From Porphyromonas sp. (GTDB taxonomy: Bacteria; Bacteroidota; Bacteroidia; Bacteroidales; Porphyromonadaceae): a DNA stretch of 64,000 bases. Below, one piece after another: positions 19,832 through 35,011 of the stretch (position 1 is the stretch's first letter; every line of letters begins with the position of its first letter). Made by a program: the position numbers and the translations under genes. The notes beneath the pieces were generated by a model. That model saw only the letters and a program-made list of their open reading frames with translations, was not told the origin of the DNA and made no database searches. Location: contig JALFBN010000010.1 of NCBI GenBank assembly GCA_022772085.1, positions 88,755-152,754 of the forward strand. Reading direction: 5' to 3'.

Positions 19832-20809
19832 ATGTTGGATTTAACTTCAAACTATGCAGGAATTGCCCTGCGCAACCCTATTGTGGTAGCTAGTTCTGGA
19901 TTGACGAATAGTGTCCAGAAAATCGAAAAGTTGGCAGCTGCCGGAGCCGGAGCCGTTGTCTTGAAATCGCTTTTTGAAGAGCAGATTGATGCTCTCTCTC
20001 ATTCGATGACAACCGATTCTGATTATCCCGAAGCTGCTGATTACATTTCGGGCTATGTCAAAGCTAATGAAATAGAAAAATATCTTGACTTTGTTCGCGA
20101 AGTAAAGAAGCGTGTTAATATCCCCGTTATAGCGAGTGTGAACTGTTACAAAGCTGGAGACTGGACTAGCTATGCACAGCAGATCGCGAGCACAGGTGTT
20201 GATGCTTTGGAGGTAAATATTATGCGCCTCGAGGGTAAGGTAACAGCTGATGCAACTCAGTTGGTTAATGATTACGTTGCTATCGTAAAGGGGGTTGTGG
20301 CTTCTGTGAAGATCCCTGTTCAAGTAAAATTGGCGAAAACATTCTCTTGCATTCCTGCTCTTGTAGATAAACTCCGTCTTGTGGGAGCTGCAGGTGTTAC
20401 GCTTTTCAATCGTTCATATCAAATGGATATTGATATTGAAAATGAGCGTATGTCCGGGGGAGAGGTGTTCACTTCTGCTGCAGATATCTCAGATACACTT
20501 CGCTACACGGGGCTTATTGCAGGTCAGATTGCCGGCTTTCCTATTTCGGCCTCTACGGGGATCCATTCTGCCGAGGGTGTTATCAAGGCTATCATGGCAG
20601 GAGCCTCTTCGGTGCAAATGTGTTCTGCTATTTATAAGCATGGTGCACCATACATTCAAAGGGTCTTGGAGGATCTCAATGCGTGGATGGAGCGTAAGCA
20701 ATATAAGGCCGTAAGTGAGTTTCGTGGTAAACTTAAGGCTGATCAGAGTGCCGATGCAACGCAATACACGCGTATGCAGTTCATGAAATATTTTATGGCT
20801 CACGAGTAA
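19832..20809 (+). CDS. Dihydroorotate dehydrogenase-like flavoprotein
   Basis: The 325-residue protein is a TIM-barrel FMN enzyme resembling PyrD: LTSNYAGIALRNPIVVASSG at the N-terminus, AVVLKSLFEEQI, PVIASVNCYKAGDW, ALEVNIMRLEG, PVQVKLAKTFSCIP and a phosphate-binding end ASTGIHSAEGVIKAIMAGAS. Bacteroidota commonly carry this extra PyrD-like protein beside true PyrD; whether it oxidises dihydroorotate is not known. The usual NCYK region differs from canonical PyrD, so I give no gene name. A hairpin at 20895-20914 follows. Confidence 0.85.
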   Translation: MLDLTSNYAGIALRNPIVVASSGLTNSVQKIEKLAAAGAGAVVLKSLFEEQIDALSHSMTTDSDYPEAADYISGYVKANEIEKYLDFVREVKKRVNIPVIASVNCYKAGDWTSYAQQIASTGVDALEVNIMRLEGKVTADATQLVNDYVAIVKGVVASVKIPVQVKLAKTFSCIPALVDKLRLVGAAGVTLFNRSYQMDIDIENERMSGGEVFTSAADISDTLRYTGLIAGQIAGFPISASTGIHSAEGVIKAIMAGASSVQMCSAIYKHGAPYIQRVLEDLNAWMERKQYKAVSEFRGKLKADQSADATQYTRMQFMKYFMAHE

Positions 20810-20894
20810 TTCATTACTCCGTTAGAGTACGAAAAGAGAGGGGAGAGGGTATTTTTATGGGAATGAGATTTTTCTCTCCCGGCTCTTATCCCGT

Positions 20895-20924
20895 GGGGGA
20901 GGCGAGTATCCCCCTCCCTTTTAT
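20895..20924 (+). terminator. Terminator after the PyrD-like gene
   Basis: GGGGGA (20895-20900) and TCCCCC (20909-20914) with an 8-nt loop, followed by TCCCTTTTAT. Confidence 0.5.
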
Positions 20925-20974
20925 CAAAGAGGATATTGTTGTTCCTCCAAAATAAAGATCTCAAAGAGAAGCGT

Positions 20975-21946
20975 ATGAACAAACACTATTTTTGCCGGCT
21001 TGTCCTATTAGGGGCATTTTCTTCAGCCGTGCTAACCTCTTTTGCCGGTTGTCAGAGTAGTCAAAAACAAAAGACTTCTGGGGAGAAAACGACTACCTCT
21101 GTTGTTGATTCGATGGAGATAGCCCCTGCTTTCCCCTCCCCAAAGATCCCAATGACAATTCAAAATGTGGATGATCGTGCGATCTATTTTGTAGATCACT
21201 TTTGGGATGAATGTAACTTTGATGATCCTAATTTGTTGAAGCGTACTGCTTCACTAGAGCAGTCTGTAGCTAACTTTTTGGGTATTGCTTGTCGCTTGCC
21301 TGTTGATCAAGTAAAGGCTGCTTTCATCCGTCCGCTGGAGGCTTCACAAGGGGAGCTGTTTGCGTTCTTTATTGATACATATGAGAAGTATCTTTTTGAA
21401 CCCAATTCTCCTTTTTTTAACGAGGAATACTATTTCCCTATCGTAGAGTGGATTGCCCATTCCCCCAAGGCCTCTCTTGCTCAAATGGAGCGGGCTAAGT
21501 ATCGCTTGCAGATCATGGGGCGTAATCGGGTAGGGCATCCTGCGGAGCAATTTACCTTTACACAACCATCCGGAGAGGTCGGTAGACTCAGCGACATGCG
21601 TGGGAAGAAGACAATGTTATTCTTTTACACTCCTGGGTGTCATAATTGCGCTCAGGTTCTAGCAGAGCTACAAGAAGATTCATTTTTTCAAAGCCTGATT
21701 GAGGCGAAGCAAATAAATGTTCTGTTTGTAGATGCAGAGACGGATGTGGACGAGTGGATGCGTACAATTGAAGAACTTCCTCCCTTTGGTGTGAAGGGAT
21801 TTAATAGTGATGGTCGGGTGGTTAATGTACCGCTTTACGATCTCAAAGCAAGTCCTACGATCTATCTATTAGATGCCAAAGGAGTCGTCCTCCTCAAAGA
21901 TGCTAACTTGGATCAGATTCGCAAGTCCTTGGCTCTTTCTGAATAG
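20975..21946 (+). CDS. Thioredoxin-fold lipoprotein (DUF5106-like)
   Basis: About 323 residues from the ATG at 20975, where a lipoprotein signal begins (LLGAFSSAVLTSFAGC, Cys lipidated). A longer frame from TTG at 20936 adds only non-signal residues. The middle (about 45-190) is a helical DUF5106-like domain. The C-terminal part is thioredoxin-like: GEVGRLSDMRGKKTMLFFYT, active site CHNC, and a cis-proline segment DLKASPTIYLLDAKG. A CxxC with this context suggests a periplasm-facing thiol oxidoreductase or reductase; direction unknown. Confidence 0.82.
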   Translation: MNKHYFCRLVLLGAFSSAVLTSFAGCQSSQKQKTSGEKTTTSVVDSMEIAPAFPSPKIPMTIQNVDDRAIYFVDHFWDECNFDDPNLLKRTASLEQSVANFLGIACRLPVDQVKAAFIRPLEASQGELFAFFIDTYEKYLFEPNSPFFNEEYYFPIVEWIAHSPKASLAQMERAKYRLQIMGRNRVGHPAEQFTFTQPSGEVGRLSDMRGKKTMLFFYTPGCHNCAQVLAELQEDSFFQSLIEAKQINVLFVDAETDVDEWMRTIEELPPFGVKGFNSDGRVVNVPLYDLKASPTIYLLDAKGVVLLKDANLDQIRKSLALSE

Positions 21947-22081
21947 GAGTTACCCTAGGCAATGCTATTATTGATGAGAATATAGTACCTTTGCCCTAGG
22001 AATAGCGATTCTAACCCATTGCAGACGGAAAAGATTAGTTCGCAGATAGCCTCTAGAGAGTACGGATGTATTCGGCCTTTA

Positions 22082-22111
22082 TTGTCTATATCGAATTTAA
22101 CCTTACCTTTG
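22082..22111 (+). promoter_or_regulatory. Promoter of the OmpA pair
   Basis: TTG (22082-22084), exactly 19 nt, then TACCTTTG (22104-22111). This is the full Bacteroidota housekeeping consensus and lies 67 nt before the ATG at 22179, consistent with strong expression. Confidence 0.7.
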
Positions 22112-22178
22112 CGCAACTTATAAGAATATTTGTTGATAGAAGAACTAAGAAAACGCTAACAATTTGAATAGTAAAATT

Positions 22179-23396
22179 ATGAAGGTAAAGTACTTATTGC
22201 TCTCTCTTATGGGAGCTATGGCACTCTCAGCTAGTGCCCAGACTACGGCACCAGAAGATCAAAACCAGCTTCCTGCTCGCAAGACAGCTTTTGATCGTTC
22301 TGCGGGTCATTGGTTTATCACCTTGCAGGGCGGTGTTAGTGCACAATTTCTAGAGGGAAATCAGGCACAGGATTTCGTGAAGCGTCTTCACGTTATGCCA
22401 ACACTCTCCATTGGTAAGTGGCATAACCCCTATTTTGCAACTCGTTTGCAACTTATGGCAGGTCCTACGCCTACGTATTATAAGACGGCTGCTAATGATG
22501 TTGTCACGCTTAATACTGCGATGGCTGGTGCTCATTTCGATTTTATGTTTGATGTAGTGAACTACTACTCAAAGTACAATGCTAAGCGCGTGTTCCACCT
22601 CATTCCTTTCGCTGGGGTTGGTTACAACTTTAAGTACTATAATGACTTCAAAGACTTCGGTAGCTACTTCTCTACGAGTCAGCCCTATCGTCACTCTTTG
22701 GCTGCTAACATTGGTGCTCAGATGTCTTTCCGTTTAGGTAAGCGTGTGGACTTCGTTCTCGAGGCTCAAGCTGTGTACAATAACCTCAATATCGTTAAGA
22801 AGGACTTTGACTACAAGGATGCTAGTGCAGCCTATATGCCAAAGGGTGCTAATCCTGATGGATACCCTTACAATGGTCTTCTCGGTGTAGTTACTGCCGG
22901 TCTTAACTTCAACCTTGGTAAGGTAGAGTGGGAGGTTATTACCCCTATGGATATGGATCTTATCAACGATCTTAATGGTCAAATCAACAGTCTTCGCGCA
23001 GAAAATGCAGAACTCGCTAAGCGTCCTGTTTCTTGCCCCGAATGCCCTGAAGTAGTTGCTCCCGAAACTAAGGTCGTAGCCGGTCTCAGCGAAAAGGCTC
23101 TTACTTTCAAGTTTGACTCTGACAAGCTTACCCCCAACCAAGAAATCGTTCTTTACGAAATTGCCAAGTTTGTAAAGGATAACAACCAAGCTATCTCTGT
23201 AATTGGTTACGCTGATGTCACGGGTAATGCAGACTACAACCTCGCACTCTCTGAACGTCGTGCTAAGGCTGTTGCTGAAATTCTTATGTCTGAGTATGGT
23301 GTTCCTTCTGACAAGATCAATGTAGAATGGCAGGGTGAAACTGAGCAGTTCGATACTCGTGCTTGGAACCGCGTAGTTATCGTTCGCTCTAAGTAA
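22179..23396 (+). CDS. OmpA-family outer-membrane protein, first of tandem pair
   Basis: About 405 residues from the ATG at 22179, where the signal peptide MKVKYLLLSLMGAMALSASA starts. Residues 30-265 form an N-terminal barrel-like domain; a coiled linker follows (NDLNGQINSLRAENAELAKR) with a Cys-rich CPECPE, then a C-terminal OmpA peptidoglycan-binding domain (LTFKFDSDKLTPNQEIVLYE, GYADVTGNADYNLALSERRA). It resembles the P. gingivalis Pgm6/Pgm7 proteins, which form a heterotrimer that tethers the outer membrane to the wall. Codon use is strongly biased, as in a highly expressed gene. Confidence 0.93.
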   Translation: MKVKYLLLSLMGAMALSASAQTTAPEDQNQLPARKTAFDRSAGHWFITLQGGVSAQFLEGNQAQDFVKRLHVMPTLSIGKWHNPYFATRLQLMAGPTPTYYKTAANDVVTLNTAMAGAHFDFMFDVVNYYSKYNAKRVFHLIPFAGVGYNFKYYNDFKDFGSYFSTSQPYRHSLAANIGAQMSFRLGKRVDFVLEAQAVYNNLNIVKKDFDYKDASAAYMPKGANPDGYPYNGLLGVVTAGLNFNLGKVEWEVITPMDMDLINDLNGQINSLRAENAELAKRPVSCPECPEVVAPETKVVAGLSEKALTFKFDSDKLTPNQEIVLYEIAKFVKDNNQAISVIGYADVTGNADYNLALSERRAKAVAEILMSEYGVPSDKINVEWQGETEQFDTRAWNRVVIVRSK

Positions 23397-23431
23397 TAGA
23401 AACACTAACCATAAAAATAGAAGATTTAGAT

Positions 23432-24631
23432 ATGAAAGCTAAAGTATTAATGCTCGCCCTTATGGGTAGCTTCGCACTTTCTTTTGGTGCTCAAGCTCAG
23501 CAGGAAGTAGCAACTCCCAATACATCCGGTCACAAGACGATTTTTAATCGCGACAAAGGTTGTGATCATTGGTTCCTTGAAGTGCAAGGTGGTGTAGGTC
23601 TCCTTCCTTTCGGAGAAGCTAACAACAAGGCTGCTCTCATGGATCGTATTTACCCCGTTGTCCAACTTGGTGTAGGTAAGTGGTATGAACCCTGGTTCGC
23701 TACTCGTGTACAAGTCGAGGGATGGAATATGAAGGGTTTTGCTCTTGATGCAGCCGGTGCTAATCATGCTTATAATAACCTTTTCGGTGCTGCTCACATG
23801 GACTTTATGTTCGACGTGGTTAATTACTTTGCTAAATACAACGCTAAGCGTGTGTTCCACTTCGTGCCTTACGTAGGTCTTGGTGCTGGTTATAAGCATC
23901 ACTCCACTGTTGGTGCTGGTTTCACAGATCCCTTCACAGGTAAGGCTGTTGATGGTGCAACAAAGAATGACTTCGGAGGCGTTGTTGATGCTGGTGTTAT
24001 CTTCAAGTTCCGTCTAGGTCGTCGTGTAGATCTTAACCTCGAAGCTCAAATGTTGGCAACGAAGACTAACATGATTGGTACTTCTTGGAAGAGTCAAGGT
24101 GCTGATATCATGGCTTTTGCTACTGCGGGTCTTGGGTTCAACTTGGGTAAACCTGAATGGGATGTTCTCATTCCTATGGATTGGGCTCTCGTTAATGATC
24201 TCAATGGTCAAATCAATAACCTTCGTGCAGAAAATGCAGAACTCGCTAAGCGTCCTGCTTCTTGCCCCGAGTGCCCCGAACCTACCGTAGATGGTGGTGA
24301 GGTAGTTAAGACTGTTGTAAACAACGTTGTTTACTTCCGCCTCGGTAGTGCTAAGGTTGATCAAAACCAGTATATCAACATCTACAATACAGCTAAGTAT
24401 GCTCTCGAAAATAATAGCAAGATCTATGTGGTAGGTTATGCTGACGAAGCTACTGGTTCTGCAGACTTCAATATGGCCCTCTCTGAACGTCGTGCTAAGG
24501 CTGTTGCTAAGATTCTTGCTGAAAAGTATGGTGTTGCTGAAGATATGATTGAAGTTGACTTCAAGGGTTCTACCGTACAGCCCTACGAAACCAACGAGTG
24601 GAATCGTATCGTTATCATGACTGCTGAATAA
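23432..24631 (+). CDS. OmpA-family outer-membrane protein, second of tandem pair
   Basis: The 399 residues have the same plan as the preceding gene: signal peptide (MLALMGSFALSFGAQA), barrel-like domain with FNRDKGCDHWFLEVQGGVG, linker NDLNGQINNLRAENAELAKR, CPECPE and OmpA C-terminal domain (VVYFRLGSAKVDQNQ, GYADEATGSADFNMALSERR). The pair share about 30-nt stretches of identical DNA in the linker and in the peptidoglycan-binding domain. They are separated by 35 nt, share one promoter, and the terminator at 24674 follows, so their products are likely made together and may assemble together. Confidence 0.93.
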   Translation: MKAKVLMLALMGSFALSFGAQAQQEVATPNTSGHKTIFNRDKGCDHWFLEVQGGVGLLPFGEANNKAALMDRIYPVVQLGVGKWYEPWFATRVQVEGWNMKGFALDAAGANHAYNNLFGAAHMDFMFDVVNYFAKYNAKRVFHFVPYVGLGAGYKHHSTVGAGFTDPFTGKAVDGATKNDFGGVVDAGVIFKFRLGRRVDLNLEAQMLATKTNMIGTSWKSQGADIMAFATAGLGFNLGKPEWDVLIPMDWALVNDLNGQINNLRAENAELAKRPASCPECPEPTVDGGEVVKTVVNNVVYFRLGSAKVDQNQYINIYNTAKYALENNSKIYVVGYADEATGSADFNMALSERRAKAVAKILAEKYGVAEDMIEVDFKGSTVQPYETNEWNRIVIMTAE

Positions 24632-24673
24632 TTAGTAGATCGAGAATAAGACTCTGAAAGAGTCAATCCTTTA

Positions 24674-24710
24674 GGGAGATGTCTGATATGGGCATCTCCC
24701 TTTCTTTTTA
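24674..24710 (+). terminator. Terminator after the OmpA pair
   Basis: GGGAGATG (24674-24681) pairs with CATCTCCC (24693-24700), 11-nt loop, then TTTCTTTTTA. Confidence 0.85.
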
Positions 24711-25097
24711 ATCTTGGTAGGGAATACTGACCATATCTTGTCCATGAAAATAAGGGAATCCTTGTTTCCCTAGAAATCAAATAGACAGTCTCTTGCTGGA
24801 AACTCAACGGAAGATGATCTCCGTAATGTTTGATAGATTTTGTTGTGACTAGATCTCTGATGATCTCTTTGATGTAGCAAGATCAGCGAAATGAGCAAAA
24901 AGTTCTATCTTTGCAACGAGTAAAAAGAAGAAAGAATGCCTAAAATATAAGAGATAAAAGGGCCGATTCTTTTTTCGATTGATAAATGGGGATGATTGAT
25001 AATGGTGCTCTGATACTATCCTAGAGTAGAGTGAGTAAGGGAATCCATTAGATCATTCCAGTTTCATGTTGGAGAATAATTTAAATAGGCAATCATT
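24711..25097. other. Intergenic region upstream of the GTPase cassette
   Basis: No gene. AGGGAA/TTCCCT (24753-24771) makes a small hairpin. A TATCTTTG -7 box lies at 24906-24913, which would give a leader near 180 nt, long enough for regulation. No known riboswitch recognised. Confidence 0.4.
24906..24913 (+). promoter_or_regulatory. -7 box for the GTPase cassette
   Basis: TATCTTTG matches TAnnTTTG; no TTG at -33 distance. 185 nt before the first gene of the cassette. Confidence 0.35.
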
Positions 25098-26162
25098 ATG
25101 AATTCACAAGCCCTACTAAGGCTCTTCTCGCTGATCGCTTTTGTCGCATTTGCATCAGTTAGTTGTTGGGCTACAGCTGAGTCTTTACATCTACTATTAC
25201 CCAATTGGCCATCCATTCTTTGCTGGATTGTTACCATTGGTTTTTACGTAGTTGCCTCTTATGGAACGAAGCTGGTCGTCGATAGTTTAAATCAATCTGT
25301 ATATGTTGAAAAGCGCGGTGTAAAACTCGTTGGAGGATTTTTACTTGCCTTGTTCTTTTGGATTGTTTGTAGTTTCCCGACCAATACACATACATTTTTT
25401 TACCGTAGTGCCATTGTGGATGTAGTTGTGGACGATATTGCTACTACCCGTACCTATTTGCAAAATCTAGCCAGTGATGCCAAGGGTGAAGAGACGGTCA
25501 AGAAAACCCAAGATAGCATTGGCGCAATTGTAAATGCTCAACTCATTGCTTTGGAAGGGGAGATTGATAATTTGGCGAACCCCGGTTTTGGAGATCGTGC
25601 CAAGGAACATCTTTCCAAAATAGCCCAAACACTGCAGGTTGCTCAGATCCCGATGTTGTCCCATACGGGTACAAATTCCAAACAGATCAAGAGTTTGAAA
25701 GATCAATATCGGAAGACAATCACCGAAATGTTGGAGAAACGTAAGGAGGAGGTTGCTCGTCAGATGACTAATGTACAGGTGGTAAAATACAAACCTGAAG
25801 CTGAAGAGCGTTTGCAGGGGTTGGAGCAGATGGCTGCTAAAATCACTGATATGGCTAATGCTAAAGAGGTAAATGAAGACTTGATCAACCAAGCCGATAT
25901 GGAACTAAAGAAGTCCTATGCTACAATCAAGAATTACCAACAATTCGTTGAACTAAAAACTGTCGATCAAGAGGTATACCTCTCTGAGCGTCCTGTAACC
26001 AAGACCTCTCGTATGTTGAGTGTATTTGATGTTTGGAAGGATTTCTTGGAAGGCAAGTACGCAGGTCGAGGGATTATCTTTTGGGTGATACTCTCTCTAC
26101 TTGTGGATATTGCTGCGTTTATTTTCTTTGATCTTGCATTCAAGCGTCGGGAACAACTTTAA
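25098..26162 (+). CDS. Four-TM protein with periplasmic coiled-coil domain (GTPase cassette, gene 1)
   Basis: The 354 residues are not recognised. Three membrane segments lie at about 8-26, 37-57 and 75-93, and a fourth at about 326-347. The loop between segments 2 and 3 (YVEKRGVKLVGG) and the C-terminus (FKRREQL) are positively charged, which places them in the cytoplasm and so puts the 230-residue central domain in the periplasm. That domain is mainly helical with heptad-like stretches (EGEIDNLANPGFGDRAKEHL, MLEKRKEEVARQM) and no catalytic motif. The next gene follows after 12 nt. Role in the cassette is inferred only: a membrane sensor or anchor. Confidence 0.7.
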   Translation: MNSQALLRLFSLIAFVAFASVSCWATAESLHLLLPNWPSILCWIVTIGFYVVASYGTKLVVDSLNQSVYVEKRGVKLVGGFLLALFFWIVCSFPTNTHTFFYRSAIVDVVVDDIATTRTYLQNLASDAKGEETVKKTQDSIGAIVNAQLIALEGEIDNLANPGFGDRAKEHLSKIAQTLQVAQIPMLSHTGTNSKQIKSLKDQYRKTITEMLEKRKEEVARQMTNVQVVKYKPEAEERLQGLEQMAAKITDMANAKEVNEDLINQADMELKKSYATIKNYQQFVELKTVDQEVYLSERPVTKTSRMLSVFDVWKDFLEGKYAGRGIIFWVILSLLVDIAAFIFFDLAFKRREQL

Positions 26163-26174
26163 ATCTTACTTTTT

Positions 26175-27113
26175 ATGGCTAATATCAATTTTGACAATAA
26201 TGATGAGTTGATCTCCCAAATCCCTGCAATGGAAAATCACGTGGAGGCAAAACCGATGGACGTCTCCGGTTTTTTGCAGAAGGAAGACCCTCGTGATATA
26301 GGACTTAATGAGGTAGAATTGAATGATCCGAACAAGATCAATGTGACCATCGCAGATACATCCGCACCTCTCTTGATGCTTTTTGGCCCCCCCTCTTGCG
26401 GTAAGACGATGACACTGATTCGCTTAACACGTTTCTTGCAAAAGTCGGGATACACGGTTGCTCCAATTCCTAGTTTTCGTCCTAGCTACGATAAAAATTA
26501 TCGAGAATTGTGCGAAAACTTCAATGCGATGATCAATAGTTCGGATGCTGCCAAGGCTACGAGCAATGTGAGCTTTATGCTTGTAGAGGTATTGAAGGAG
26601 GGGCGTCGGGTTTGTCAGATACTGGAGGCTCCCGGAGAATATTACTTTAATCCTGATTTACCCAAAGCTGATTTTCCTGCCTATTTCAATAAGATCATCA
26701 ATATGACGAATCGTAAGATTTGGCTCTTTTTCCTCGAACCGATTTGGCGAGAAGATGTGGATCGTCGCAATTATGTGACACGTATTGAAATGGTAAAGAG
26801 TCGGAGTCGTGCACACGATAAGGCGATTTTCGTTTTTAATAAGATTGATAAGACAAACTATGTGATCGCTCCTGGTCAAGTACATAAGCAACAAGCCCTC
26901 AAGCAGGTGAGCTTTCTTTATCCCAATCTTTTCGTGCCTTTCCGCAACACTAATCCTATAACCTCTTTTATCAGACCCTATAATTTTGATTTCGCTGTTA
27001 TGCACACGGGGGACTATGTCTCTGCTGCAGATGGTACCTTGACCTTTCAAGAGGGACCTGAGGAGTATGTGTCGGAATTGTGGCATATCGTTCGTCGTCA
27101 TATTAGAGGTTGA
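26175..27113 (+). CDS. P-loop GTPase-like protein (GTPase cassette, gene 2)
   Basis: The 312-residue cytoplasmic protein has a Walker A GPPSCGKT (about 71-78) after a hydrophobic strand LLMLF, a segment ILEAPGEYYF in the place of the G3 switch, and FVFNKIDK (about 218-225), a G4 NKxD that points to guanine specificity. G1, G3-like and G4 spacing fits a small-GTPase or double-GTPase type domain, extended by about 60 residues at each end. It resembles, from memory, GTPases in Bacteroidota operons proposed to act in biological conflict; I could not test this. It lies 12 nt after gene 1 and 11 nt before gene 3. Confidence 0.7.
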   Translation: MANINFDNNDELISQIPAMENHVEAKPMDVSGFLQKEDPRDIGLNEVELNDPNKINVTIADTSAPLLMLFGPPSCGKTMTLIRLTRFLQKSGYTVAPIPSFRPSYDKNYRELCENFNAMINSSDAAKATSNVSFMLVEVLKEGRRVCQILEAPGEYYFNPDLPKADFPAYFNKIINMTNRKIWLFFLEPIWREDVDRRNYVTRIEMVKSRSRAHDKAIFVFNKIDKTNYVIAPGQVHKQQALKQVSFLYPNLFVPFRNTNPITSFIRPYNFDFAVMHTGDYVSAADGTLTFQEGPEEYVSELWHIVRRHIRG

Positions 27114-27124
27114 TTGATACGATT

Positions 27125-28336
27125 ATGCAGTTCGAAATCTTTTTACATGGCACTCCACAAGGCCAGCAAATCTTGGGTAAGTCGTCGGATGCATTTGCTC
27201 GTTTCGCTTCGACTTTTTATACGGTAGATACGGCTGATATCACGGAAAAGTTACGCATGGATCAGCTTGTGACAAGTCGAGGATCCGTGCTAATTTATTC
27301 TCTTGTTTGGGCTCGGCAGATTGTGGGCGATGATGGGCGAGAAGGGGGCTATGTGGCACTCTCTCTGCAACTGGATCTCATGGCTCGCAGTACATATCAA
27401 ATCTATAATTTACTGAAGGCGTTGTTTCTAACTAAAGTCTTGGGGCGTATTGTCCGCGTAAAAGAGGGGGATAAAATTCAATTTGCTACATCCAAACTAA
27501 CCTCTTTTGGAGTGGATTATATTGCGGAGTTAGAGGGATTCGTTGGGGCATATATTCGAGATAATATCGGAGCCTCGGGCTTTGCTCCCATACCTCAAGT
27601 GGGGCAATCGGGAAAAGTGCATTCGGGGGGTGTTCGTAAAGTAAATCGATTCGATTTTTCAGAGAATCTCCTATTACAGACACTTGCCAATGGCGATACC
27701 TTGGACGTTTCAGATGAATATCCCTCTCAGCTGACAGAGCAAAAGATCAGGGACTTGAGTCGTCAGCTTGAGGAAACTAAACGATCCTATTCAATGCAAC
27801 TTGCTGAATTACAAGAGCAACATAGGGAGACTTTAACAGCATGGAAGCAACAATGGAACGCTAAGTTAGAGCAATCTTCAGAGCAGTTACAGCAACAAGC
27901 CCAAAAGAGTAAGGTGCAATTGGATCAACTTGCAATGGAACGGAATCAGTTGCGTACGGAGTTGGAGCATTTGCAGATACGGGTAAAAACGGCAGACTTA
28001 CAGAGTTCGCTACTCAAGCAGGAATCTAGTTTAAAGGCTTTGGCAGAGTCGATTTTTCAACTTTTTGGTTTGTCAAAAGGAGGACTCTCCCCTTCTCAAG
28101 AAGACTCTTCAACGTCCGACAAAGTGTTGATTTCGCACCGCTCTTGGTTCCCTATTATACATCTTATACTCACCCTTATATGTGCTTTGTTGCTCACAGT
28201 GGTTTTGATCTTTTTTCGTTCTGATAAGGGGGATAATACGCCTCCCATTGTCACTATTCAACATGATACGGTCTACATAGAGAGTCCAAGGGTCGATTCT
28301 ACAGCTCTTGAAGTACCAGGAATATCCAAATATTGA
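27125..28336 (+). CDS. Single-TM coiled-coil protein with N-terminal regulator-like domain (GTPase cassette, gene 3)
   Basis: About 403 residues from the ATG at 27125; a TTG at 27110 overlaps the previous stop and is less likely. Residues 1-150 form an alpha-beta domain (MQFEIFLHGTPQGQQILGKS, then strands LIYSLVWARQIV and GGYVALSLQLDL). Residues about 205-315 are a long coiled coil rich in Gln and Glu. A membrane helix at about 345-368 (IIHLILTLICALLLTVVLIF) is followed by a 35-residue periplasmic tail. The strand pair resembles one in gene 4, so the two N-terminal domains may be paralogous. They could act on the neighbouring GTPase (inference). Confidence 0.65.
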   Translation: MQFEIFLHGTPQGQQILGKSSDAFARFASTFYTVDTADITEKLRMDQLVTSRGSVLIYSLVWARQIVGDDGREGGYVALSLQLDLMARSTYQIYNLLKALFLTKVLGRIVRVKEGDKIQFATSKLTSFGVDYIAELEGFVGAYIRDNIGASGFAPIPQVGQSGKVHSGGVRKVNRFDFSENLLLQTLANGDTLDVSDEYPSQLTEQKIRDLSRQLEETKRSYSMQLAELQEQHRETLTAWKQQWNAKLEQSSEQLQQQAQKSKVQLDQLAMERNQLRTELEHLQIRVKTADLQSSLLKQESSLKALAESIFQLFGLSKGGLSPSQEDSSTSDKVLISHRSWFPIIHLILTLICALLLTVVLIFFRSDKGDNTPPIVTIQHDTVYIESPRVDSTALEVPGISKY

Positions 28337-28340
28337 GTTA

Positions 28341-28379
28341 TAGATAGAGAGGTTACTTTAACTCCTCTATCTATTTTTT
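28341..28379 (+). terminator. Intercistronic hairpin with T-run
   Basis: TAGATAGAG (28341-28349) and CTCTATCTA (28365-28373) pair, followed directly by TTTTTTT. It sits between cassette genes 3 and 4, so gene 4 would be read through only partly or have its own promoter. Confidence 0.7.
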
Positions 28380-28385
28380 AGCCTG

Positions 28386-29672
28386 ATGAATACTACCATT
28401 TATCTATTTTCGTCGACGTTGTCCTATGAGCAATATCCCAATGATTCGACCTCTCGACTGTTTCAGGGGCTTTTGTCTCGAGCAGAGGCTCCTGAGCAAC
28501 TCTTGATTCATCGGGAGGGTGATCTCGTTTATTACGTTTATATTCGAGCGTTGGGGGAAGAGCCTAAAGGCTTTTGGGGGGTCTCTTTTATCCTCAATGG
28601 AGAACATCTTATAGGGGCTTTTGAGAAATTGATGAAGTTTTGTGAGCAACAATTACGCTATGTGGCTCTTCAGGGAGATTTGCTTCAGCTGGATGATTAT
28701 GGGAACATCCGGCGAACTAATAGCACTTTTCATGATCAATTGCCATTTATCGAATCCTTGGTGCATAAGATCCGTAAACAGTTCTCGGGGCTCGATTTGC
28801 CACTCGCACTTCTTCCTCCCACCAATTATGGTATAGATCGACGGAGCTTTAGTCGATTATCTGTTTCGGAACAGGATGTGGATATTTTAAGGGCTGTTGA
28901 GAGTCATGCTATTGTTGCATTGCTGCAAGCAAAAGACTATGAAGATCCGCTTCTCAGACGTTATGGAGAGCAACTTAGGTGTTTGGCGATAGAACGGGAC
29001 GACTTAAAGAAGAGATGCGAAGAGCTACAATCGTCCTATTGTGCCCTCAATCGACAAAAAAAACAGTACAAAAAAGTAATGTTTCTCTCCCTCCTAACTG
29101 CTTTCATTTTGTGTCTTAGTTCTGTTGGTTTTTTTGTCTTTAGATATCATTTACGTTCGCTCCGGCAGGATGCTTTGGAGCAGTCTTCTCAAAATAAAAA
29201 ACTCACGGCACAAAACGAACGTTTGGAACAGAGCAATCAGGAGTTGTCGTCATCCTACGCACAGGAGCAGCGCAAGCATGAAGAGGCTCGTTCGTTACTT
29301 GATGGATTGACCCAAGGAATGCCTCTTGTTGTTCGGGGGATAGAGGTGGCTATGACGAGTCAAACCTCGGAAGTTCCAACCTCTTTCAGTAGCAAGGCTC
29401 ATTTGGATCGTTACCTTTGGGTTGCTATTGAGTATAAAGAGATAGAGGAAGCTTTGGTTGATTTACAGGTCGAGGTGTATCGCAGAGAGGATAACATCCG
29501 GGTGGCCTCCATCCCACTAAGTGTACAGACACTGATGCTTGGCGAGGGGAGTCGTAAGGTTGTAACTCCGGCTATTTCGGGAGATTGGATCGAGGGTGAA
29601 TACGAGATAGAGGTACGTAGTGGGGAAGTGGTACTCTCTTCCAAGCGTGTTTATATAGATTCCTATCGATAA
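28386..29672 (+). CDS. Single-TM coiled-coil protein with periplasmic beta domain (GTPase cassette, gene 4)
   Basis: The 428 residues are not recognised. The N-terminal part (1-200) contains strands LVYYVYIRALG and GFWGVSFILNG, comparable in order to YSLVWARQIV and GGYVALSLQLDL of gene 3. A short coiled coil leads to a membrane helix at about 233-254 (VMFLSLLTAFILCLSSVGFF). Outside the membrane a second coiled coil (about 258-305) leads to a beta-rich C-terminal domain (about 310-428), ending LSSKRVYIDSYR, that looks immunoglobulin-like. The topology matches gene 3: sensing or tethering outside, regulator-like domain inside. Confidence 0.65.
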   Translation: MNTTIYLFSSTLSYEQYPNDSTSRLFQGLLSRAEAPEQLLIHREGDLVYYVYIRALGEEPKGFWGVSFILNGEHLIGAFEKLMKFCEQQLRYVALQGDLLQLDDYGNIRRTNSTFHDQLPFIESLVHKIRKQFSGLDLPLALLPPTNYGIDRRSFSRLSVSEQDVDILRAVESHAIVALLQAKDYEDPLLRRYGEQLRCLAIERDDLKKRCEELQSSYCALNRQKKQYKKVMFLSLLTAFILCLSSVGFFVFRYHLRSLRQDALEQSSQNKKLTAQNERLEQSNQELSSSYAQEQRKHEEARSLLDGLTQGMPLVVRGIEVAMTSQTSEVPTSFSSKAHLDRYLWVAIEYKEIEEALVDLQVEVYRREDNIRVASIPLSVQTLMLGEGSRKVVTPAISGDWIEGEYEIEVRSGEVVLSSKRVYIDSYR

Positions 29673-30007
29673 ATATGCTATGATTTCTCTTTTTTTACTT
29701 CTATGGCAATAGAGGCCCTTTGACCAAATTCTTAACCTGTTTTGGGAAAGACTATCTCCGAATTATCCTACCTTGTCTTGCTGGATTTATTGATCCACAG
29801 AAAACTCCAAAGCTTTTTCATAATTACTAGAGTATATATAGAAATCCCCTGCTTTTGTCCCCCCAGTAATTGCATCAGTAAGATGTTACCGGAGGTAGAT
29901 TAAAAAACAAAAGGAGGGGATTATTATCTTTAGGCTGGAGATGAAAAGTATTTTAGGGGGAGTCCATGACGGAAATAGATTCCCGACAAAACTTTTTCTC
30001 TTCTTCT
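29673..30007. other. Convergent intergenic region with long inverted repeat
   Basis: No gene. AATCCCCTGCTTTTGT (29843-29858) and ACAAAAGGAGGGGATT (29907-29922) pair over 16 bp with one mismatch around a 48-nt loop. The position between convergent genes fits a two-way terminator for cassette gene 4 and gltX. Confidence 0.6.
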
Positions 30008-31528
30008 TTATCCGAGGACTTCAATAGCTCGCTTAATGCGACGAATACTCTCCTCTAAACCGAGTAGGTAAATAATTTCATTGATATGAGGACCTTTAGG
30101 AGCACCAACGAGAGCTAAACGCAAGGCATTCATCACCCCTCCCATATTGTATTCGTTGCTTTGAATAAAGTTATTGAGAGCCTCTCCAAGAGTATTGCAG
30201 TCCCATTTAGATTGCTCTTGTAGGAGCGCGATTACCTCGCGCATTTGCGTGGGTGATTCGGATTTCCACCGTTTTTTTGCAGTTTTCTCATCGTAAGCCT
30301 CAGGAGCTATGAAAAAGAATGAAGTTTCGTCCCACAGCTGAGGAATGAGCTGTACACGATCCCTTACGACCTGCAAGATCGCCTCTAGATTAGATGGAAT
30401 TGCCACACCCTGTTGCTCCAAAATGGGGATAAATAGTTCTTTGATTAGGGTTAAGGGAGCCTCTTGTAAGTAACGATGATTGAACCATTTTCCCTTCTCG
30501 AAGTCAAATTTAGCCCCTGACTTACTACATTTGTCGAGTGTAAATGCTTCGATGAGCTCCTCTCGTGTCATGACCTCTCGGTTATCACCGGGATTCCATC
30601 CTAGAAGAGCCAGGAAATTCACAACCGCTTCGGGCAAATAACCACTCTCGCGGTAACCCATAGAGATTGCTCCACTCTGAGGATCGATCCACTCCAGGGG
30701 AAATACAGGGAATCCCAAGCGATCCCCATCTCGCTTGCTCAATTTGCCATTCCCCTCGGGCTTGAGCAGGAGTGCCAAATGGGCAAAAACGGGCATTGTA
30801 TCCTCCCAACCCAATGCACGATAGAGCAATTTGTGCAAGGGGGCACTAGGCAACCACTCCTCTCCTCGTATCACATGGGTAATCCCCATTAAGTGATCAT
30901 CTACGATATTAGCTAGGTGGTAAGTGGGAAGGTCATCGCTACTTTTGTAAAGTACCTTATCGTCAATAATAGAAGAATTGATACGCACTTCTCCACGGAT
31001 TAGGTCCTCTACCACAACCTCTTCGTTGGGTTCAATCTTGATACGCACCACGTAGGGTACACCAGCGACTTCTAGTGCAGTAATCTCCTCAGCAGAGAGG
31101 GACAGATCGTTTTTCATCGAACCTCGAGTGGTCGCATCATACTGAAAGTTAGGAATAGCCTCACGCGCAGCTTCCAACTCCTCCGCTGTATCATATGCTT
31201 TGTAGGCCTTACCCTCACGGAGCAATTGCTCTACATAGATCCGATAGATGTCACGGCGTTCACTCTGTCGGTAGGGACCGTGATCACCACCGATACCAAC
31301 ACCTTCATCGATCTCTATACCAAGCCATTGGAGCGACTCTAGGATATACGCTTCGGCTCCCGGTACAAAACGTTTGCTATCCGTATCCTCAATACGGAGG
31401 AGCATATCACCACCAAAATGACGAGCAAAAAGATAGTTGTAGAGAGCTGTACGTACCCCACCAATATGAAGAGGACCCGTAGGACTTGGAGCAAACCGCA
31501 CGCGTGGCTTTTGAGGTAATGAAGTCAT
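30008..31528 (-). CDS. gltX: Glutamyl-tRNA synthetase
   Basis: The 506 residues are a class I synthetase charging tRNA-Glu. The HIGH motif is HIGG in [20 protein letters not shown], and the KMSKS-type loop is KLSKRDG. The region [20 protein letters not shown] between them is typical, and the C-terminal anticodon-binding part is present. Start at 31528 is followed directly by [11 protein letters not shown], as usual. A -7 box lies at 31570-31577. Confidence 0.97.
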
Positions 31529-31569
31529 ATCTAAGTATTGCTTTAATTTTTCTATGTCTAATGTCCTGA

Positions 31570-31577
31570 CAAAAGTA
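31570..31577 (-). promoter_or_regulatory. -7 box for gltX
   Basis: Minus-strand TACTTTTG, 42 nt before the gltX ATG. No -33 TTG at the usual distance. Confidence 0.4.
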
Positions 31578-31788
31578 GCTATTTGTCGGAAAATAGTAGG
31601 TTCTTACAGAGATGCTACTTGTCCTAGAGTCTCGTGAAGAGAGGGATATATATAGAAATCGGTAAAAGCCCTTTCCTGTGGGAACTCCTTGGCAACAGAC
31701 AATTCATCTTCTTGTCTTCTGGTTCTAAATCTACAAGACAGAAGAGATCAATCCGATAGACGGAAAATAAAAACTATTGGAGTATTTC

Positions 31789-32532
31789 TTATTTCAGGAG
31801 TAGCGTTTGTCTGTTTGGATCATAGAGGGGAAGTATAGGATAGCGATCCTCTTCTAAACAGATGGGAATCGTTGGGAGATAACCTAAGCGTTCAAGCCGT
31901 TGATAATGCTCCAGTTGTACAATAAAATCTTGTAGGTGATCCTTATAAGCCAGATAGGAGAGGTGTGCGATTAGCAGTGCATCATTCGCACCCTTTATGG
32001 TGACACCTCGTTCAAGGAAGCGATGGAGCAATATACCTGCAAATAGGCAATCTTCACCCGCTAATTGTCCTTCCCATCCGGCAGCCACGACCAGTACCTG
32101 CTCAAATTGACCCTCTTTCGTATAGCCAATAATACGAGAGATATTACCAAATGATCCTATGGCGATGTATTGAGCTCCTGCTTCGCGTGCAAGATGTAAT
32201 GCCCGAGTGCCGTTTGTCGTTGTGAGTACAACCTTCTTATCTTTTACGAGGGCTGTTGTATATTCTTCGGGATCATTACCCAGTTGAGCACCCTCTACAC
32301 GTACGGCATTGCGCTCCGCTGCTACTAGATAATCAGGATCTACTCGATAATGAAGGCTCTCCTCTACAGTTGCTACGGGGCGAACTTCTATCGCTCCGTG
32401 GTATAGGGCTGAAAGGATGGTGGCAGATGCTCGAAAAACATCTGTGATCACTACGAGTGTCCGATTCCAACGGGATGGAGCATAGTTCTTGATAAGATCA
32501 GGAGAGGGACATAGGTGTAGTGTTGGATTCAT
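31789..32532 (-). CDS. 2-phosphosulfolactate phosphatase family protein (ComB-like)
   Basis: The 247-residue protein matches the ComB phosphatase fold: VVITDVFRASATILSALYHG near the start, DPDYLVAAERNAVRVEGAQL, LGNDPEEYT, VVLTTTNGTRALHLA and VVAAGWEGQLAGEDCLFAGI, which hold the Mg2+ and phosphate site residues. In methanogens this dephosphorylates 2-phosphosulfolactate for coenzyme M. No other coenzyme M gene is near and Bacteroidota do not make it, so the substrate here is open (sulfolactate or another phosphoester). It ends an operon with the small membrane protein 3 nt upstream. Confidence 0.85.
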   Translation of the reverse strand: MNPTLHLCPSPDLIKNYAPSRWNRTLVVITDVFRASATILSALYHGAIEVRPVATVEESLHYRVDPDYLVAAERNAVRVEGAQLGNDPEEYTTALVKDKKVVLTTTNGTRALHLAREAGAQYIAIGSFGNISRIIGYTKEGQFEQVLVVAAGWEGQLAGEDCLFAGILLHRFLERGVTIKGANDALLIAHLSYLAYKDHLQDFIVQLEHYQRLERLGYLPTIPICLEEDRYPILPLYDPNRQTLLLK

Positions 32533-32535
32533 CTC

Positions 32536-33024
32536 TTAGTTTTTTTTGGTGGGCGTGATGTTTTCGGAGGATATTGTGCCTTGATCTTCATTGGTATGCT
32601 CCCCGTCTTCGGGATAGATGCGTTCGAATAACTCCGTTATTTCAATTACAAAGTCTCTCCCTTCGACTAACTTAAGATAGTCTGTTCCTCCTGGTTTTGT
32701 CAATTTTACCTCTTTCGTGTGGGGGAGATAGGTTACTTCCACAATGTCGGTGAATTTGCAGACGATATGCGGTTTACGCCCGTAGTCATTACCGGCATAG
32801 AGTAAATACGACTTGGCATCTATGTAGTAAAAGGTGTCGCGACGGAGGTGTAGAGCAATCCCAATAGGGATGAGCAATGTGGGAGCTATGAGCGTCCACC
32901 AAGGGGCTGTAGTGCTGTGTGAAATAACAGCGATAAAAGCTATAACACCAAGAGTGTAGAGTATTGCTACAAAGTATGCCGTCTTGTAGCTACGTAGACT
33001 GTGGCGTAGATAGTACTTTTTCAT
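32536..33024 (-). CDS. Small two-TM membrane protein with PH-like domain
   Basis: About 162 residues from the ATG at 33024. I prefer this start to 33051 because the longer frame begins inside the gcvT terminator. Two membrane segments lie at about 17-35 and 42-60 (TAYFVAILYTLGVIAFIAVI; LIAPTLLIPIGIALHL). The following 75 residues form a beta-rich domain (TFYYIDAKSYLLYAG, CKFTDIVEVTYLPHTKEVKL) similar in outline to bacterial PH-type domains, then an acidic tail. Function unknown. It precedes the ComB-like gene by 3 nt. Confidence 0.65.
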   Translation of the reverse strand: MKKYYLRHSLRSYKTAYFVAILYTLGVIAFIAVISHSTTAPWWTLIAPTLLIPIGIALHLRRDTFYYIDAKSYLLYAGNDYGRKPHIVCKFTDIVEVTYLPHTKEVKLTKPGGTDYLKLVEGRDFVIEITELFERIYPEDGEHTNEDQGTISSENITPTKKN

Positions 33025-33029
33025 ATAAA

Positions 33030-33071
33030 TCAAGAAAAGAGGGTCTCCCACCTTAAAATGAGAAGACCCTC
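33030..33071 (-). terminator. Terminator after gcvT
   Basis: GAGGGTCT (33039-33046) and AGACCCTC (33064-33071) pair perfectly. On the minus strand the hairpin is followed by TTTTCTT. Confidence 0.8.
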
Positions 33072-33098
33072 AATTATATGCATTACAACTAAGCTCGA

Positions 33099-34187
33099 TT
33101 ATTGACGGAAAGGTGCTTTTACAACTTCAGCTTTGAGTTGGCGACCACGTACAACAATCGCAATAGGCGTACCCACCTTGGCATATTCCTTGGCTACGTA
33201 ACCCATACCGATACCCTTTTTGAGCCATGGAGACATGGTACCGGAGGTGACCTCACCAATGATTTCGCCTGCTTCGTTGGCAATTTCATAGTGTTGACGA
33301 GGTACCCCCTTGTCCTTGAGTTCAAAACTCACGAGCTTACGGGTCAAACCTCCGGCCTTTTGCTCTTCAAGGAGCTTGCGTCCGATGAGATCTTCTTTAC
33401 CCTCTACCAATTTAGTAATCCAGCCAAGACCTGCTTCAATAGGTGAGTGTGTATCATCAATATCATGGCCGTAGAGGCAGAAGCACATTTCAAGACGAAG
33501 GGTGTCACGGCAGCCCAAGCCTGCAGGCATGATACCCTCCGGCTTACCTGCTTCAAAGAGAGCTTTCCAAATTTTGTCTGCATACTCGGGATAGAAATAG
33601 AGCTCAAAGCCACCGGCTCCCGTGTATCCGGTTGCGGAGATAATCACATTGGGACAACCTGCAAATTCACCTACCTTGAAGGTATAGTAGGTGATTTCGG
33701 ACAGGTTGACATTGGTAAGGCGTTGCATCACTTCGGTTGCCTTCGGCCCTTGCACAGCAAGTTGAGCAATGTTGTCAGAGGCGTTTTCAAGCTCTGCCCC
33801 CATGGTATTATGTTTTTGGCACCAAGCCCAGTCCTTTTCTACGTTGGCGGCATTGGGTACCATCATATATTTTTCTTCTTCATATCGATAGAGGAGGAAG
33901 TCATCTACGATACCGCCCTCTTCCGTCGGGAAACAGCAGTATTGTACTTGCCCAACGGCCAACTTGGACGCATCGTTGCTGGATACTTTTTGAAGGAATG
34001 CCAGTGCGTTAGGTCCCTTTACCCAAAACTCGCCCATGTGCGAAACGTCAAATACACCTACATTGTTCACAACATTGAGGTGCTCTTCAATGATACCGGT
34101 GTACTCAATAGGCATATTGTAGCCTGCGAACTCGGCCATCTTAGCGCCAAGCTCAATGTGAGTGTTGGTAAATGGAGTTGTCTTCAT
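33099..34187 (-). CDS. gcvT: Glycine cleavage T-protein (aminomethyltransferase)
   Basis: The 362-residue protein transfers the aminomethyl carbon to tetrahydrofolate, releasing ammonia. Typical segments are [47 protein letters not shown] and the C-terminal [20 protein letters not shown]. It supplies methylene-tetrahydrofolate, the FolD substrate. No other gcv gene adjoins it. It has its own -7 box (34228) and terminator, so it is a single-gene unit. Confidence 0.96.
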
Positions 34188-34227
34188 ATTCGTATAAATG
34201 TATCTAATCAGTATTGTTACTCTAGGA

Positions 34228-34235
34228 CAAAGGTA
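34228..34235 (-). promoter_or_regulatory. -7 box for gcvT
   Basis: Minus-strand TACCTTTG, 41 nt before the gcvT ATG. -33 TTG not found at 19-20 nt. Confidence 0.45.
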
Positions 34236-34264
34236 GCTAATCCGATGGGATTAAGGGGTACGAT

Positions 34265-35011
34265 TTAGCGATAAAGATGAGCAAGAATGGCTGGAGAGGA
34301 GAGCTCGCCTATGGGAGCATAGTGTAGTTTGATATAATCTAGTAGGTAGGTTAAGGTGCGTTTACGCTCTTCTCGTGTAAATCGGAAGAGATGCATATTA
34401 TTGTAATTGATTCGTCGGATCTTCGTGAGCGCACCGACCTCCTTGGGGGAGAGACTGTATCCGTTGTGAGGATTGTAGGGAACAAAAGCTACTTCTTTGA
34501 GGTTGAACCATCCCTTAGGCTCTTCGTCCAATAAATGTGTAGGAAATATACCCAAAGGATCGAGCAATCCTAAAAAGAAGGCAATATGGAAGTTGGCACA
34601 GCTGTTTTTTGTTTCCTCCAATTGGGCAATCCCATGACTGATATAGCGGTACACTTCGGGATCTGCAGGGGCATTGCGTAAGATGTGGTAGAGAGCCTCA
34701 GCTAGAAAAAATGCGATATGAACTTTGTGAGGTTCATAGAGAAGTAGGTTTAAGTTGAGTTTGTGATATTCGGCTTGCTCAATCTGTTGCAAACTTCTTT
34801 GGGGGCGATGCTCAGCTGTAATTGCTAGTTCTGCCAATGGATTCATCATGCGTTGCAGCAGATATTTGCCCGATCGCCTACTCCTCCCCCTCGGCGCGTG
34901 AGGAATACGATAAGCTATCACCCCCTCCTCTTCCGTTAGGAGGTGGGCAATAGCAAATTGATCGTTATAGGCTCGGGTAGTCAGTACGATAGCCCGTGTT
35001 GCAAGCAGCAT
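34265..35011 (-). CDS. recO: DNA repair protein RecO
   Basis: The 248 residues begin MLLATRAIVLTTRAYNDQFA, the RecO OB-fold start in which the protein promotes RecA loading with RecR. A helical domain with KVHIAFFLAEALYHILR and ANFHIAFFLGLLDPLGIFP follows. The zinc-finger cysteines found in some RecO are not evident, as is usual in Bacteroidota. It lies 35 nt after the CobD-like gene. Confidence 0.85.
   Translation of the reverse strand: MLLATRAIVLTTRAYNDQFAIAHLLTEEEGVIAYRIPHAPRGRSRRSGKYLLQRMMNPLAELAITAEHRPQRSLQQIEQAEYHKLNLNLLLYEPHKVHIAFFLAEALYHILRNAPADPEVYRYISHGIAQLEETKNSCANFHIAFFLGLLDPLGIFPTHLLDEEPKGWFNLKEVAFVPYNPHNGYSLSPKEVGALTKIRRINYNNMHLFRFTREERKRTLTYLLDYIKLHYAPIGELSSPAILAHLYR

Follow-up and report, generated by a model that had tools for sequence, protein, structure and literature searches.

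A four-gene Porphyromonas cassette as a putative membrane-anchored GTPase switch with paired longin-type partners

We analysed a four-gene cassette in a stretch of Porphyromonas sp. DNA of 64,000 nucleotides (contig JALFBN010000010.1, positions 88,755 to 152,754), which is referred to here as the window. With moderate confidence, we read the cassette as a membrane-anchored GTPase switch in which gene 3 would be the GTPase-activating protein (GAP) acting through Arg72, and gene 4 would be its catalytically silent longin partner. An earlier note on this DNA had described four plus-strand genes with gaps of 12, 11 and 49 nt, and the coordinates agree exactly. It had also proposed a GTPase switch regulated by paired N-terminal domains. 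This proposal is supported by the longin model of gene 3, by the homology between these N-terminal domains, by the predicted fold of gene 2 and by the gene order kept in relatives.

The AlphaFold model of the gene 3 N-terminus is a longin fold, with FLCN-FNIP2, VAMP7 and Lst4 as the best matches and with the beta-beta-alpha-beta-beta-beta-alpha order of that fold. In this model, Arg72 is positioned between strands 53-62 (beta4) and 77-83 (beta5). Three residues, G9, Y58 and R72, were invariant in 71 aligned gene 3 domains (the window and 70 of the 76 loci; L015, L029, L053, L057, L082 and L087 were excluded because their starts were extended or cut). The six unaligned loci also carry the arginine, which the pattern detected in five and inspection by eye in one, and it is therefore present in the window and in 76/76 loci. 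Five loci escaped the pattern; the arginine can be read in the sequence of each, and four of these loci belong to the aligned set as well.

In Avl9-type DENN GAPs, the catalytic arginine was placed in the beta4-beta5 loop (PMC12803157). FLCN Arg164 and NPRL2 Arg78 occupy analogous loops of the longin domain (PMC7464330, PMC8534245), and SMCR8 Arg147 was observed in the Arf1 active site (PMC8213707). We infer that the loop of these three arginines is the same as the Arg72 loop; the cited passages give it without strand numbers. The roadblock and longin folds are related by circular permutation, and the longin domain is considered a descendant of prokaryotic roadblock GAPs (PMC3521125). The element order of the gene 3 model is that of a longin domain. 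MglB was not among the 50 VIA matches listed, which excludes nothing.

Hydropathy predicts one transmembrane (TM) segment each for genes 3 and 4, as had been noted before. In gene 3, the coiled coil, where residues 203-327 gave weak matches to coiled-coil-rich families, precedes the TM segment, and the protein ends in a short periplasmic tail. The coil is thus cytoplasmic by orientation, and the idea that the coils reach across the membrane does not hold for gene 3. The gene starts with ATG, and there is a TTG at 27110.

The similar strand order reported for the N-domains of genes 3 and 4 proved to be true homology, with a profile-profile (hhalign) E of 1e-18 and probability of 99 (2.9e-17 on the first cut). 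The loop of gene 4 equivalent to the Arg72 loop is shorter, and R-x-G was found there in 3/77 proteins. A homologous partner mostly without the arginine motif lies in the same operon as gene 3, and the two would pair as a heterodimer. Such a pattern, a finger-bearing longin beside a second longin, is described for FLCN-FNIP and NPRL2-NPRL3 (PMC7464330).

Gene 2 had been presented as a cytoplasmic P-loop protein with GPPSCGKT and NKID. Both motifs are there, and hydropathy gave no TM segment. Its AlphaFold model is a Rag/Gtr/Arf-like GTPase, the predicted fold carrying the P-loop and NKxD. In the ILEAPGE stretch, I149, L150, E151, P153, G154 and E155 were conserved at 90% or more. The closest described systems are those centred on DO-GTPases, one mark of which is a Walker B glutamate (PMC7159879), and gene 2 has this glutamate (E151). 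The Pfam families DO-GTPase1 (PF19975) and DO-GTPase2 (PF19993) did not match gene 2 at E up to 1, and neither was found in the whole genome. Direct comparison with the DO-GTPase1 profile gave E 1.3e-4 (probability 53). Through the families of three-gene intermediates, the link has E 1.5e-10 and 6.5e-16, and two of the intermediates exceed the Pfam cut-off. Gene 2 is related to DO-GTPase1 through these intermediates, as distant kin. DO-GTPase1 rows below cut-off were seen in nine genomes and were mostly short P-loop stretches.

To place the cassette among its relatives, we used gene 2, which had 1099 homologues in the protein database at an E-value of 0.001 or lower. Scanning named genomes, we obtained 80 loci. 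Of these, 75 are labelled Bacteroidales or Bacteroidetes and five come from metagenome-assembled genomes labelled Firmicutes (L050, L052, L067, L080 and L082). We kept 77, leaving out L014 (a cut second copy in one genome) as well as L050 and L052 (which begin inside gene 2 and have no gene 1). Since the loci were retrieved through gene 2, its presence is given by design. Genes 1 and 2 adjoin in the 77 loci. The gene-order counts use the 63 loci with at least 5 kb past gene 2. A gene-3-type protein follows gene 2 in 63/63, a small retropepsin-like protein comes after gene 3 in 51/63, and gene 4, the second protein with the same class of N-domain, is found in 61/63. Searches with genes 3 and 4 reach each other's families after round one, and the two were told apart by their place in the operon. 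The order in relatives is thus membrane gene, GTPase, longin-type protein, usually a retropepsin-like lipoprotein, and second longin-type protein, with median gaps of 24, 5, 1 and 3 nt over all loci. It is retained in other Bacteroidales families, and the usual fifth gene is missing from the window. With this retention and the number of gene 2 homologues, the arrangement goes far beyond what chance would give. Clusters with the same order occur in relatives from animal guts, and the five-gene form is carried by gut commensals such as Parabacteroides distasonis and Segatella copri. The closest copy is that of P. endodontalis ATCC 35406, with gene 2 being 80-81% identical.

We compared the divergence of the parts by distance-matrix correlations in 49 loci with all five genes near full length. 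Shared ancestry also raises such correlations, so that only the differences between pairs carry weight. The highest of 21 pairs was gene 2 with the gene 3 longin domain (0.82), and gene 1 with the protease reached 0.80, compared with 0.62 for gene 2 with gene 1. The value for gene 1 and the protease suggests that the protease might cut the periplasmic part of gene 1. The gene 4 C-terminus gave 0.21-0.30 with the other parts and 0.43 with its own N-domain. This fits a cytoplasmic pair of GTPase and GAP, an envelope pair of gene 1 and protease, and an exchangeable periplasmic module in gene 4.

Beyond the predicted folds, the gene order and the conservation, we infer the following mechanism. At the inner membrane, gene 2 would alternate between its GTP and GDP states, and the longin domain of gene 3, held there by its coil and TM segment, would accelerate hydrolysis through Arg72 as an arginine finger. 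In the cytoplasm, the longin domains of genes 3 and 4 would pair in the manner of FLCN-FNIP and NPRL2-NPRL3, with gene 4 completing the longin pair and connecting it to the periplasm. Gene 1 would keep the complex in the membrane and, together with the protease where it is present, would read the envelope. Sensing of the envelope, or action in it, may fall to gene 1, to the C-terminus of gene 4 with its variable periplasmic part and, in most relatives, to the lipoprotein as well. An event there might then alter the contact between the longin pair and the GTPase, which would shift the nucleotide state of gene 2 and pass the signal on.

Several points weigh against this reading. The shared fold of the gene 3 domain shows no function, Foldseek found no match for this domain reaching E 0.001 (the best, 0.002, was TagF), and its comparison with the counterpart in three-gene systems was weak (E 0.0044, probability 8). 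Envelope sensing is read from the topology. Since the window lacks the protease of most relatives, its system may be reduced. The beta4-beta5 placing of the arginine is stated, in the cited source, only for Avl9-type proteins. Some arginine occurs in the equivalent loop stretch of gene 4 in 26/77 proteins, and a different one, R43, is conserved in 75/77; for these reasons gene 4 could also touch a nucleotide. Longin pairs serve as guanine nucleotide exchange factors (GEFs) too (PMC8534245). Genes 3 and 4 might accordingly be a GEF or a scaffold: like Mon1-Ccz1, TRAPP and DENN proteins, which load Rabs, they would charge gene 2 with GTP at the membrane. The placing known for Avl9-type proteins and the arginines of gene 4 itself count for this explanation and against the GAP. 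We nevertheless consider it unlikely, because an arginine in 76/76 loci at the loop of Avl9-type GAPs, with the motif lacking in the partner, is the pattern of a GAP and is unexpected for a GEF.

A longin domain on an Arf-like GTPase is also found in the eukaryotic signal recognition particle receptor, and the cassette might similarly be a docking platform for cargo guidance or for the assembly of an envelope machine, with no GAP step. We regard this as improbable. If the role were housekeeping, more relatives should carry the cassette, whereas strong gene 2 matches were found in 4/295 Bacteroidales genomes and in 4/26 genomes of the genus (the window genome being counted in both), and the loosely coupled gene 4 C-terminus also argues against it. 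Two further rows at E 3e-4 among the 295 genomes resemble P-loop chance matches. Gene 2 also matches an AAA-type P-loop weakly (AAA_22, E 2e-4, below cut-off), which is a last point against the GTPase switch. It could be an ATP-driven AAA-like P-loop protein, with ordinary PAS-type sensors as the N-domains of genes 3 and 4 and with the likeness to GTPase regulators being a matter of shared fold. We find this improbable as well.

The nearest described kind, the DO-GTPase/GAP1 systems, has the DO-GTPase at the centre of proposed conflict systems (PMC7159879). The cassette resembles them in the GTPase directly followed by a dedicated partner gene, in the Walker B glutamate and in the membrane parts. 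It differs in having no Pfam GAP1 match, coiled-coil TM partners, two longin-type genes and a single GTPase (38% of the DO-GTPase systems have two paralogous ones, and a second GTPase was seen in 3/63 of our relatives); the GASH and FNIII parts were not seen in the cassette. Since the window proteins fail the Pfam models of these systems, the cassette is not filed with them. None of GAP1-N1, GAP1-N2, GAP1-M and GAP1-C was found among the window proteins at E up to 1. The GAP1 families were likewise absent from the 20 families that 77 gene 4 proteins matched, all of which were listed, and from the 25 of 97 families listed for 76 gene 3 proteins. GAP1-N2 was absent from 148 Bacteroidota genomes, and GAP1-N1 occurred in 3/395 genomes, in two of them above cut-off. 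The comparison of gene 3 with the GAP1-N1 profile was weak (E 0.029, probability 1.7), with HG-x-G to R-x-G being collinear, and its score exceeded 60/60 shuffles and 21/21 natural windows. The three-gene counterpart was also weak against GAP1-N1 (2/60 shuffles). For gene 4, the score against GAP1-N1 was at chance level (reached by 40/60 shuffles) and that against the three-gene counterpart near chance (2/60), so kinship of gene 4 with GAP1 was not used as an argument. The suggested link to GTPase-centred conflict operons thus stood for gene 2, through the intermediates, and is only suggestive for GAP1-N. The main text of the GAP1 paper does not contain the word longin (PMC7159879).

In its working, the cassette would resemble the eukaryotic longin-domain GAP complexes, which have been described as acting on Rag and Arf GTPases. 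This likeness does not by itself make it a member. As in FLCN-FNIP, the NPRL2-NPRL3 pair of GATOR1 and C9orf72-SMCR8, there are two longin-type proteins, of which one has an invariant loop arginine, a Rag/Arf-type GTPase and a membrane location. Unlike these, the cassette has no DENN match or sequence match, and it has membrane-spanning subunits, Glu in G3 and a bacterial operon. The longin profile found nothing among PDB sequences (best E 0.45). In MglA-MglB of Myxococcus and other prokaryotes, too, a small bacterial GTPase has a regulator from the roadblock/longin superfamily (PMC3521125). This system differs from the cassette, where the elements of the gene 3 model follow the longin order and the gene 3 protein crosses the membrane. 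The gene 3 domain had TagF as its best Foldseek match, and we know of no GTPase partner for TagF of type VI secretion. We found no paper on this operon in a literature search that was thin on subscription journals.

Gene 1 consists of N-terminal TM segments, a periplasmic helical region and one C-terminal TM segment, and contains SFPTNTHTFFYR. The four TM segments claimed for it were seen in 66/77 related loci; in the window, hydropathy gave three clear ones. A profile match (E 9.4e-13) links it to the gene that opens the three-gene relatives found in other Bacteroidota. The small protein of the relatives is a retropepsin-type aspartyl protease, PF13975 being above cut-off in both of two scanned. 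DTG or DSG was present in 58/58 of these proteins and a lipobox-like cysteine in 56/58, by a loose pattern. Its gene is absent from the cassette in the window, in P. endodontalis and in G006, and present in P. uenonis. The protease profile found no homologue in the window genome or in P. endodontalis, matched P. uenonis at E 3.6e-62, and gave a marginal stretch away from the cassette in G006 (E 6.7e-4). We found no paper that combines a GTPase switch and a retropepsin-like lipoprotein of the periplasm. The profile also matched long proteins near, and outside, the cassette in three loci (L029:9927-11993, L041:14145-16187 and L044:15234-17318); the one scanned (L029) has TPR repeats and a C-terminal retropepsin-type domain.

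In 3/63 loci with more than 1 kb upstream, a ZorB-like gene ends 11-40 nt before gene 1. These genes matched PADLOC ZorB1 at E 3.5e-11 to 1.8e-12, with Pfam MotB_plug below cut-off. A ZorA-like gene precedes the ZorB-like one in L053 (MotA_ExbB E 4.5e-4 and 20.4 bits, the cut-off being 22.9) and in L042, where it was identified by reading, and the L029 contig starts inside that gene. L053 also has a gene-4-type gene upstream of the Zor-like pair, and clustering placed a fourth locus in the Zor-like group, on the downstream side. The window differs from Zorya in having no ZorA or ZorB among its genes at 20000-35000; ZorC-E were not sought. Zorya was suggested to respond to phage damage of the cell wall (PMC11890865). 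The spread of the cassette is patchy and accessory, and together with the few operons with Zorya-like motors it points to defence or envelope injury. Because the neighbours in the window look like housekeeping genes, a defence role is a possibility and not a finding.

We also entertain, tentatively, a wider reading. Here the Bacteroidota operon would be a complete envelope-tied longin-GAP pathway, a counterpart of FLCN-FNIP and GATOR1; GAP1-N would be the same longin GAP; and the DO-GTPase systems, as a whole class of predicted immunity, would be driven by a GTPase/longin switch, with the trigger arriving from the periplasm via the retropepsin-like lipoprotein and, in some cases, with coupling to a Zorya-like motor. 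The GAP1 proteins of conflict systems would then gain a fold and a mechanism checkable at one residue. The pairing of GTPase and longin is best known from nutrient-sensing complexes of human cells, and an operon with a GTPase, an arginine-bearing longin and a partner would offer a test bed for the working and origin of longin GAPs.

Table 1. Features of the cassette in the window, and Zor-like genes in related loci
Feature	Position	Strand	Remark
Gene 1	25098..26162	+	inner-membrane protein
Gene 2	26175..27113	+	cytoplasmic P-loop GTPase, predicted Rag/Gtr/Arf-like fold
P-loop GPPSCGKT, gene 2 residues 71-78	26385..26408	+	G71, G76, K77 invariant in 51 sequences
ILEAPGE, gene 2 residues 149-155	26619..26639	+	G3/Walker B position, Glu replaces the usual Asp
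NKID G4 motif, gene 2 residues 222-225	26838..26849	+	K223, D225 invariant in 51 sequences
Gene 3	27125..28336	+	ATG start; predicted GAP subunit
Longin domain, gene 3 residues 1-200	27125..27724	+	AlphaFold model
Arg72 codon, gene 3	27338..27340	+	predicted arginine finger, beta4-beta5 loop
Coiled coil, gene 3, about residues 205-320	27737..28084	+	cytoplasmic by orientation; extent approximate
TM segment, gene 3 residues 344-362	28154..28210	+	hydropathy; one TM in 72/76 loci
Gap between genes 3 and 4	28337..28385	+	empty; retropepsin-like lipoprotein gene sits there in most relatives
Gene 4	28386..29672	+	longin-type N-domain without arginine motif, one TM, periplasmic C-terminal part
N-domain, gene 4 residues 1-175	28386..28910	+	homologous to gene 3 longin domain
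TM segment, gene 4 residues 233-251	29082..29138	+	hydropathy; one TM in 55/69 loci
ZorB-like genes (with ZorA-like in L042, L053)	L029:530-1213, L042:125-2351, L053:4387-6722		three Bacteroidales loci

A Pfam/NCBIfam scan of genes 1-4 gave no protein above cut-off, and a PADLOC scan, for which no cut-offs are supplied, gave nothing convincing for the four proteins, with mad8 (E 0.004) as the sole row for gene 2. The weak library matches (coiled-coil families, AAA_22 for gene 2 and an FtsL-like match of the gene 4 TM segment and coil at E 6e-7 and 29.2 bits, the cut-off being 42.45) were read as composition and not as kinship. No RNA family reached threshold in 24000-30500. The GC content is 0.415-0.452 in the cassette and 0.413-0.472 in the flanks. 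Just upstream, at 22164-23396 and 23432-24631, are tandem similar OmpA-like outer-membrane proteins (named by eye). This tandem is also found upstream of the P. endodontalis cassette; the downstream neighbours differ, being gltX-like in the window and FeoB-like in P. endodontalis. In a search for a mobile origin, gene 2 matched nothing in plasmids or phages. In viral contigs, the 26 pattern matches included one gene 2 relative; it is 36% identical and lies on a contig of the viral collection (L103) that is possibly a bacterial contig or a prophage neighbourhood.

The periplasmic modules of gene 4 in relatives were FGE-sulfatase-like (L011), Ig-like, SH3 and DUF805, each in 1-3 of 77 proteins. 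DUF805, which matches 3/77 gene-4-type proteins, was also found as a membrane protein in a distant three-gene relative (L107:3987-4661). In L011:12704-19489, several gene-4-type genes are arrayed after one cassette, one of them with a terminal FGE-sulfatase (formylglycine-enzyme-like) domain. One downstream protein family recurs in 7/77 loci, such as L015:14347-16329, and may form a variable component, either of the surface or of the output; the L015 member has BACON and fn3-like domains.

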